From NCBI GenBank assembly GCA_017456605.1, contig JAFTJA010000001.1:1-64000 (forward strand): a stretch of 64,000 bases of DNA, in the 5' to 3' direction. A model generated the notes under the pieces. That model searched no databases. It saw nothing but the letters and a program-made list of their open reading frames with translations, and was not told the DNA's origin. Origin of the DNA: Clostridia bacterium (GTDB taxonomy: Bacteria; Bacillota; Clostridia; Monoglobales; Monoglobaceae). Positions within the stretch are counted from its first letter, which is position 1, and each line of letters starts with the position of its first letter. The translations under genes and the position numbers were made by a program. Below are positions 3,649 to 54,603 of the stretch, piece by piece.

Positions 3649-4521
3649 TTACTTAAAAAGAAAAATATGCGACACAACAACCAAAAACACCCCAAGGCAA
3701 CAACAAGTAACCGTAAAAACATGACCGGGATATTGCTTCATCCAGGCAGCAACCACACCAAACGCCGCTATCCCCACACAAAACGCCCCCGCCCAACCAA
3801 GCAACAACAACGGACTGTTGGGCGCATCAAAAAACCTTGTTTCCAACAAGATATAAGCCAGTGATGGCAATATCATCACAAAAATTCCTATAAGCTGCAA
3901 CGCTTTATACATCTGTGGATGTTTTTCTTCAAATTCAATAGCTCTCATATGTTGTCTTATATCCTTGGGATGTTTTTTATAAAAATCCGGCTTTATTTGT
4001 TTCGCAATAGTTTTATCACTGTACCTTCTCTTATACCATTCTGTCCAAAACGAAAGATATCCTTTTCTATCAAAATCATCTTGAGGTACATCCTTTGGTG
4101 TACAGCTTTTATAAAACTTTTCCACTTTATCAGCAAATTCAAAAACTTCTTTTTCATATTCGTCAAAACAAACCGTCGTTTCTTTTCCTGTTTGGGTAAT
4201 TAACTTAATTTTTCCGTCGTCATTATGTATTATTGTCCAATCTATTCCTCCATCGCACCCGGAAATTTCCACTCTATCAAAAGTATCATTGGGTATAAGA
4301 AAGTGACCACAACACGGTATCATTTGCTTGCCGCTTTCTCCTGAAAAATGATCTTCTGTCAAAGATTTCAACAAACGCAAAGCTGTAGCACTAACGATCC
4401 CATTATACTCAAATCTTTCATCACCTATAACAGCTAACACTTTGCCGTGGGCACATAAATCATGCGGGTCATCCCCTACACCATTTAACCAATTCATATC
4501 GCTTACATCAATTTTAAACAA
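3649..4521 (-). CDS. Unknown protein with C-terminal membrane helices
   Basis: About 290 residues. The first 200 are soluble and mixed, with cysteines in MIPCCGHF and ISGCDGGIDWTIIHND and an aromatic stretch YLSFWTEWYKRRYSD. A basic, histidine-rich linker (KKHPKDIRQHMRAIEFEEKHP) leads to three hydrophobic helices near residues 210-290 that end at the C-terminus. So the protein is probably a cytoplasmic sensor or enzyme domain anchored by a C-terminal helix bundle. I do not recognise the family. The TTG at 4521 is the best start because AGAGGTG sits 6 nt before it; a GTG at 4530 overlaps that ribosome site. Confidence 0.6.
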   Translation of the reverse strand: MFKIDVSDMNWLNGVGDDPHDLCAHGKVLAVIGDERFEYNGIVSATALRLLKSLTEDHFSGESGKQMIPCCGHFLIPNDTFDRVEISGCDGGIDWTIIHNDDGKIKLITQTGKETTVCFDEYEKEVFEFADKVEKFYKSCTPKDVPQDDFDRKGYLSFWTEWYKRRYSDKTIAKQIKPDFYKKHPKDIRQHMRAIEFEEKHPQMYKALQLIGIFVMILPSLAYILLETRFFDAPNSPLLLLGWAGAFCVGIAAFGVVAAWMKQYPGHVFTVTCCCLGVFLVVVSHIFLFK

Positions 4522-4943: not shown

Positions 4944-4967
4944 ATTACCACTCCTTTTCAATGTGTT

Positions 4968-5089
4968 AAGGCTCCCTTGTGTAAAGGGAGCTGTCAGCGT
5001 AGCTGACTGAGGGATTGTTTCTTTTATATGCTTACAACCCCTCCGAGTTTGCTCCGCAAACCCACCTCCCCTTACACAGGGGAGGCTTT
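4968..5089. mobile_element. MITE-like inverted-repeat element, about 120 bp
   Basis: The two ends are near-complementary over their whole lengths. AAGGCTCCCTTGTGTAAAGG on the left matches the reverse complement of the right end, AAGCCTCCCCTGTGTAAGGG, and the inner parts match again (GAGGGATTGT against GAGGGGTTGT). Inside are small hairpins GTCAGCGTAGCTGAC and GTTTGCTCCGCAAAC. There is no coding capacity. From memory, elements with this GGCTCCC...GGGAGCTGTCAGC signature are common in gut Clostridia; a non-autonomous transposon is the likely explanation. Confidence 0.8.
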
Positions 5090-5123
5090 ATTTTTCAACA
5101 ACATTCGACAATCTTTATATAAA

Positions 5124-5344
5124 GGCTGAACAATTTAGATGCCATCTGTTTGGCGATATACTCACTTCGTTCGTACGATATATTTTCATTTCATTTCGTT
5201 GCGATATGATATAAATTCCTTTGTTCTCGTCCCCAATGGACATATCGCATTACGAAGTAATATATTGCACCGAAGGTATATCGCAAATTCCGTCAGGAAT
5301 TTATATCGCTGAGTTCAAGTTTCACTTGAACTCATTATATAATT
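5124..5344. repeat. Hairpin array A: word CGATAT left, ATATCG right
   Basis: The left half carries CGATAT at 5154, 5176 and 5202. The right half carries its reverse complement ATATCG at 5242, 5278 and 5303. Between the right-hand words sit hairpins with different stems: ATTAC-GAA-GTAAT (5249-5261), ACC-GAA-GGT (about 5269-5277) and AAATTCC-GTCA-GGAATTT (5285-5302). A long-range 13-bp arm joins GATATAAATTCCT (5208-5220) to AGGAATTTATATC (5295-5307). The array ends with a perfect 10-bp stem, TGAGTTCAAG/CTTGAACTCA (5310-5334). There is no open frame of note. Not a known feature type that I can name. Confidence 0.75.
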
Positions 5345-5575
5345 AGGTGACAGAAAAGATGCACCTTGTTGTCGATATGCAACCTTCGTTTGCTCGATAT
5401 TTTTGCTACCGCAAAATCGATATGTTTTCGCTATGCTCAAACTCGATATGATATGAATTCTTGTCGCGTTAGCGACATATCGAGTGCGACAGCACATATC
5501 GAGTCCGCAAGACATATCGAGAATTCGCAAGAATTCATATCGACGATTTCAAGCTTCGCTTGAAATCATTATACC
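5345..5575. repeat. Hairpin array B: four CGATAT, then four ATATCG
   Basis: CGATAT occurs at 5373, 5395, 5418 and 5444; ATATCG occurs at 5477, 5496, 5514 and 5537. Each interval is a small palindrome: TTTTGC-TACC-GCAAAA, GTCGC-GTTA-GCGAC at the centre, GTGC-GACA-GCAC, GTC-CGCAA-GAC and GAATTC-GCAA-GAATTC. A 14-bp long-range arm pairs GATATGAATTCTTG (5450-5463) with CAAGAATTCATATC (5528-5541). A perfect 10-bp terminal stem with a TTC loop closes the array at 5545-5567. The array sits back to back with array A and stops about 30 bp before the nitroreductase promoter. Confidence 0.8.
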
Positions 5576-5603
5576 ACACCCTCTCCCTTTTTTCAACTTC
5601 CCC

Positions 5604-54361: not shown

Positions 54362-54571
54362 GATACACTTTTGCTGTCATCTGTTTTTTAATGAACTATC
54401 TCGCCTTGCTCGATATGAAATAATTTCTTGCAGAAATTGTGAAATAGAAAAATAAGGTTTTCTGTGAAATAAAATAAATCCTTATATCACACGCCGTCAG
54501 GCGTATTTCACATTGCGAAGCAATATTTCATAGCAAAGCTATTTCACAAATCCGAAGGATTTATTTCATTG
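54362..54571. repeat. Hairpin array C: word TGAAAT left, ATTTCA right
   Basis: TGAAAT occurs at 54416, 54440 and 54465; ATTTCA at 54505, 54525, 54541 and 54563. The intervals are hairpins AATTTCT-TGC-AGAAATT, AGAAAA-ATAAGG-TTTTCT, ACGCC-GTCA-GGCGT, ATTGC-GAA-GCAAT, TAGC-AAA-GCTA and AAATCC-GAA-GGATTT. A 12-bp long arm joins AAATAAATCCTT (54472-54483) to AAGGATTTATTT (54555-54566). The left edge still reads CGATATGAAAT at 54411, holding the word of arrays A/B. The array separates the TRAP unit from the tmRNA gene. Confidence 0.78.
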
Positions 54572-54603
54572 AAAAACGATACAGTAAAAACTGTATCGTT
54601 TTT
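54572..54603 (-). terminator. Terminator of tmRNA, also the last palindrome of array C
   Basis: AAAAACGATACAG pairs perfectly with CTGTATCGTTTTT around TAAAAA. On the minus strand it begins right after the tmRNA CCA end and ends in a T-run, so it terminates ssrA. Confidence 0.9.

Follow-up and report, generated by a model that had tools for sequence, protein, structure and literature searches.

Array B, a set of inverted words and hairpins in the 64,000-nucleotide stretch of Clostridia bacterium DNA analysed here (the window), appears to be a non-autonomous copy, without a protein gene, of a small mobile element that in its autonomous form carries both the array and an IVP gene encoding a four-helix-bundle protein related to the Avd protein of DGRs. 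We give this explanation as a whole a probability of about 0.62. The copies share one layout, their hairpins and word pairs covary, IVP genes are linked to the arrays and co-directional with them, and each IVP clade goes with one word. Copies with common ends lie in unrelated flanks, one class of them directly downstream of -10 boxes. The comparison provides a genetic context for two orphans, the structured RNA Gut-1, reported in 2010, and the IVP/S23p family from 23S rRNA inserts; array B alone is a Gut-1-like, IVP-linked variant.

Architecture of array B and its copies

The words of array B lie where the earlier note placed them, with CGATAT at 5373, 5395, 5418 and 5444 and its reverse complement at 5477, 5496, 5514 and 5537, and each inter-word gap within 5345-5575 contains a hairpin, as it had described. 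The 14 bp arms that it proposed to close a cruciform (5450-5463 and 5528-5541) match exactly, but closure by these arms is only one of two competing states, because the same arm also builds the outermost hairpin, and a global fold other than the 14 bp-closed one results from the nested word pairs of array B. The array is present in the interval 5345-5575, but the unit is longer, adding a hairpin (5545-5567) and a minus-strand promoter (5568-5596), and forms a tandem stack with a second array, array A (5154-5308; Table 1).

Table 1. Coordinates of the features of arrays A and B in the window.
Feature	Position	Strand	Remarks
-35 box TTGAAA of the promoter reading into array B	5591..5596	-	TTG exactly 17 bp from the -10 box in 30/32 copies of the class; array-less orthologous promoter in G030
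-10 box TATAAT at which array B was inserted, the element starting directly downstream	5568..5573	-	Identity between copies ends exactly here
H0 end hairpin of the array B element, GATTTCAAGC/GCTTGAAATC	5545..5567	-	Inverted repeat I9
Array B: 4 + 4 words, seven hairpins, TCGATAT subtype, without IVP gene	5373..5542	-	Words, inverted repeats, covariation
3' end of the array B element; GCATCT at 5357-5362, with the next -10 box 17 bp further on	5340..5372	-	GGCATCT...TATAAT end, conserved in both solo and autonomous elements
Second TATAAT, the -10 box entered earlier by array A	5334..5339	-	Inner copy of the tandem stack; one of two TTG-less exceptions
H0 hairpin of array A, TGAGTTCAAGT/ACTTGAACTCA	5310..5334	-	Inverted repeat I5
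Array A: GCGATAT subtype, 3 + 3 exact words	5154..5308	-	38.1 bits against half of Rfam Gut-1, short of the cut-off of 50
3' end of the array A element, GGCATCTAAATTGTTCAG...TATAAA	5114..5153	-	End motif same as in other copies

CGATAT occurs 55 times in the window against 18.8 expected, a count that none of 100 shuffles reaches; a three-word pattern has 31 matches in the genome and its reversed control has none, and both strands of array B fold far better than shuffled sequences (z = -6.3 and -6.5). Chance clustering or an assembly artefact is refuted by the shuffles, by the reversed-pattern control and by the presence of arrays in many independent genomes, and has next to no probability. About ten copies are present in this genome and more than 100 in related ruminant-gut Clostridia, where array elements are abundant; the copies compared were taken from this genome, from relatives and from named ruminant-gut Clostridia MAGs, which are incomplete assemblies. 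No distant match to the arrays was found on a plasmid. A match in Sporobacter termitidis and several pattern matches in viral contigs lack the full layout and are attributed to chance.

The copies follow a common plan which, on the minus strand, consists of four words with three hairpins, then a central hairpin and a repeated arm, and then four reverse-complement words with three hairpins. Among 70 distinct complete arrays, each inter-word segment folds better than its shuffled letters, and all six inter-word hairpins covary. The pairing of stem arms with their true partners far exceeds that with permuted partners, as in hairpin h6, which is fully paired in a fraction of 0.85 compared with 0.15 and has 17 distinct stems. 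The covarying stems that the earlier note suggested looking for in related arrays are thus present in this set, and bear out its proposal that structure rather than stem sequence is conserved. The base flanking the words also covaries between the two halves (seventh word pair; TTT with AAA in 26 arrays, GGG with CCC in 21), which argues for a nested long-distance pairing of the words and thus for a chain of four-way junctions.

The outer arm, its hairpin partner and a central copy vary jointly (AAATTCC/GGAATTT/GGAATTT, AAATCTC/GAGATTT/GAGATTT, GAATTCT/AGAATTC/AGAATTC and others), and in the set of all arrays none of 2000 permutations reaches the observed three-arm pairing. When the arrays are collapsed to ten distinct pairs, the long-range third-arm member alone is not significant, and a switch between two arm-pairing states is therefore plausible but not proven. 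In all CGATAT arrays the left loops are CTTCG or CTGACG and the right loops tend toward their reverse complements (CTTCG versus CGAAG), such that both strands resemble each other. This symmetry is not predicted by a purely RNA role and counts against an RNA-only molecule. Directly before the array, a perfect H0 arm of at least 7 bp is found in 100 of 128 arrays, compared with 0.8% at control positions.

Two other repeats adjoin the arrays. A distinct palindromic repeat (AAGGCTCCCTTGTGTAAAGGGAGC ... CCCCTTACACAGGGGAGGCTT) at window positions 4960-5090 borders array A, and a similar sequence lies beside the arrays at L002 and L004. TTCGACA motifs are repeated at 5100-5120 and on the same side of L002 and L005, adjoining the distal end of several arrays; their reverse complement, TGTCGAA, resembles a Spo0A box.

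Element forms and insertion sites

The autonomous form is composed, in order, of H0, the fishbone array, a ribosome-binding site and IVP gene, often a cargo gene, and the 3' end (GGCATCTAAATCGTnCACTGATTC). A 966 bp element in genome G028 has H0, the array, IVP, a second ORF without a Pfam match and the 3' end GGCATCTAAATCGTACACTGATTC, with TAGAAT at both sides, and an element 91% identical to it is present between unrelated flanks in G016, a genome of another genus. Solo copies of about 230-250 bp have both ends as in the autonomous element and lack the genes, and this sharing of ends between gene-less and gene-bearing copies is MITE-like. From these comparisons we infer that the element is mobile. 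We note that an Mrr-type restriction endonuclease gene follows IVP at L171 and is possibly cargo, and that at L196 (2242-2500) the 966 bp element is itself inserted before a further array with the word ATGAATTG/CAATTCAT. At L186, a viral, phage-like contig, an array near position 4438 lies between 18 bp direct repeats (CCCGGCTAAGCGAGCCGC), and the right arm of its H0 is the reverse complement of the repeat end, a relationship that is clear in this copy only.

In one class of insertions a -10 box precedes H0, and, in 30 of 32 copies, a TTG box is present exactly 17 bp further upstream; no copy has it at a spacing of 12-16 or 18-19 bp. The two TTG-less exceptions, of which array A is one, are inner members of tandem stacks in which the outer element supplies that stretch. 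Array B sits directly downstream of a sigma-A -10 box. The promoter spacers are unrelated between copies and H0 is identical, showing that the promoter belongs to the host. At the orthologous region of the relative G030, upstream of a nitroreductase gene, the sequence TTGAAA-N17-TATACT is array-less and runs directly into the host gene; this locus represents half an empty site, the other flank being rearranged. No clear empty site was found among the orthologues of the L060 insertion.

At the distal end of the elements GCATCT is located 17 bp before a second TATAAT, and the same -10 hexamer is found at both element sides in nine of 12 cases, including TAGAAT/TAGAAT. Of the flanking target-site duplications that the earlier note proposed to look for, this hexamer is what is found, and no general longer duplication tied to H0 rises above chance. 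The open transcription bubble at the -10 box could be the insertion target, and if targeting of -10 boxes is true, it is an unusual route by which a selfish element gains transcription while the host gene is spared. Further classes of insertion follow a tRNA or tmRNA terminator or a stop codon, or occupy the 3' end of a rumA-like gene, and none of the copies read, including array B, is inside a 23S rRNA gene. At L006 in this genome (C6:69300-71200) a rumA-like methyltransferase gene carries an IVP element in its 3' end and receives a new C-terminus from it, and the original gene end is displaced beyond the element.

IVP genes and their words

The co-occurring protein gene sought by the earlier note is the IVP gene (PF05635/TIGR02436), which is present downstream of the autonomous copies. 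It directly follows 19 of 144 arrays, at 5-21 nt in 17 of the 19, is on the same strand as the array in all 19 cases and is never upstream. IVP matches PF05635 alone in Pfam, TIGR02436 above the cut-off in NCBIfam and the solved structure 2RLD by sequence, and dN/dS values of about 0.06-0.4, in those comparisons with usable dS, indicate purifying selection. In a search that started from IVP genes, all of the eight closest full-length IVPs of the family have a CGATAT array, and 16 of 62 IVP genes are preceded by symmetric words (at least three on each side), where dinucleotide shuffles predict 0.1. Counting against the model, many IVP genes of the class, with 38 of the 62 unlabelled, lack a recognisable array. 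The IVP genes that follow tRNA genes at L234, L235, L246 and L248 have a different leader, in which a terminator arm has a third copy inside a long inverted repeat, such that terminator and anti-terminator states are possible.

The array could instead be a cis-regulatory leader, an RNA switch in which the outer arm has two alternative partners and which controls IVP or the downstream gene, with its spread being secondary. It does form the 5' leader of IVP, nearly always with 5-21 nt between array and gene, and three covarying arms permit two exclusive states. However, 125 of the 144 arrays are without a downstream IVP and precede unrelated genes or follow tRNA genes, the element ends and unrelated flanks are those of an inserted unit, and the third-arm covariation is not significant on ten distinct pairs; we regard this explanation as improbable.

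Distant IVP genes are preceded by the same array plan with other words, these being AGCTAAAT, TGAAAT, AGTGATATT, AATGATGT and TCATAAC. The six words require five changes on the IVP tree, which is the minimum and is not attained by any of 200 shuffles, and within the CGATAT clade the two array subtypes, TCGATAT and GCGATAT, correspond to two IVP subclades. Horizontal transfer is suggested by the clade with AGCTAAAT, in that it is found in several families of the class. Part of the match between word and clade could be explained by co-inheritance of array and IVP in one element; the match also suggests how the long-puzzling IVP family may find its nucleic acid, and the rule of one word per clade offers a ready test of specificity by word and protein swaps.

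A plausible scenario for the mobile element is that an IVP oligomer, expected to be a pentamer like the solved relative from Xanthomonas (PMC4990558), would bind the word helices repeated along its own array, with word-bearing copies without the gene being served in trans. An IVP of the TCGATAT subtype, to which array B belongs, is encoded in this genome at C6:69727-70080. The array would most likely act as RNA made from the captured promoter, or else as extruded DNA, and the cutting and joining enzyme, presumably not encoded by the element, would have to come from the host or from another element. Among the roles that the earlier note had offered, namely recombination substrate, small RNA or protein-docking array, a mobile element that would dock its own protein fits best; as to a recombinase substrate, no recombinase or reverse transcriptase that tracks the arrays was found.

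Relationship to known systems

REPIN/RAYT systems (PMC3116915) and bacterial MITEs likewise combine inverted hairpin arrays of a short word with numerous gene-less copies and a single-copy protein matched to the word. They differ in that the partner of the array is a helix-bundle protein and not a Y1 transposase, and in that the array is a long 4 + 4 word chain inserted at -10 boxes. A DNA-level palindromic repeat of this type, extruded or single-stranded and moved in trans by a Y1/RAYT or other transposase, with IVP as passenger or DNA chaperone, would account for words and loops that are symmetric under reverse complement and for the many gene-less copies with constant ends. Y1 transposases are indeed present in five of nine genus genomes. 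Their presence is not tied to array number, however, with about ten arrays and no Y1 found in this genome and three Y1 genes and no array in G025, which weakens this route, and a transposase acting in trans leaves one word per IVP clade unexplained. We consider it unlikely, although the strongest of the alternatives.

The partner protein provides a link to DGRs, since Avd and IVP are considered homologous (PMC10053308), belong to one fold family and share the role of a nucleic-acid-binding partner of a structured RNA. Unlike in DGRs, a reverse transcriptase was not found beside the array system in the genus, and a DGR or group II intron route was set aside with PF00078 in none of the nine genus genomes, the assemblies being incomplete. 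We tentatively suggest, at somewhat less than even odds, that the elements represent a new mobile class without transposase or reverse transcriptase, in which the sole conserved protein, an Avd-like helix-bundle oligomer, reads the short word repeated along a chain of four-way junctions, with words and proteins diversifying jointly as a code and with entry at the -10 boxes of active promoters, which rebuilds promoter spacing for the displaced gene.

In type III toxin-antitoxin systems (ToxIN) a repeat RNA is located upstream of a small protein gene, much as the array precedes IVP. On this model, the structured repeat RNA immediately 5' of the gene would neutralise IVP, and solo arrays would be antitoxin-only. 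The array repeats are inverted, however, rather than tandem, the array ends are mobile, and the protein family is unrelated, with IVP matching PF05635/TIGR02436 and no ToxN/AbiQ-type endoribonuclease in Pfam or NCBIfam. We know of no toxic effect of an IVP; one IVP has been expressed, in vitro only. A toxin-antitoxin role is thus very improbable.

The intervening sequences of 23S rRNA, whose function and mobility have been called unclear, are likewise small mobile-looking elements with RNA hairpins, and PF05635 is their sole common protein (PMC4990558). The arrays differ in being outside rRNA, in the word array before the gene and in their targets, which are promoters, tRNA ends and gene ends, and PF05635 is encoded by the autonomous copies only, array B being without the gene.

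The earlier note had found no feature type that matches, but Rfam Gut-1 (RF01706), in which the word UGAAAU is parted by short hairpins, corresponds to one half of the same architecture with a different word, and the layout is in this respect partly catalogued already. Gut-1 was described as certainly structured, probably not cis-regulatory and from human gut only (Weinberg et al. 2010, PMC2864571). Its Rfam model is without the inverted second half, the IVP gene and the element ends, and the complete structure, the connection with IVP, the word code and mobility appear new; we found no description of the link between IVP and array in the openly licensed PMC literature, and a preprint may already describe it. 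Arrays A and B have no match in Rfam at the cut-off, which for Gut-1 is curated at 50 bits, and the Gut-1 scores of CGATAT arrays fall below it (38.1 bits for half of array A, 35.5 for L043 and 27.8 for L060). The word-hairpin-word half-plan of Gut-1 is nonetheless present in the arrays, as seen in the consensus alignment and sequence, and at L228 Gut-1 matches occur in plus/minus pairs directly before an IVP gene. The window also contains, at 54390-54600 on the minus strand, an array with the word TGAAAT located directly after a tmRNA gene and terminator, the first half of which is a true Gut-1 scoring 72.7 bits.
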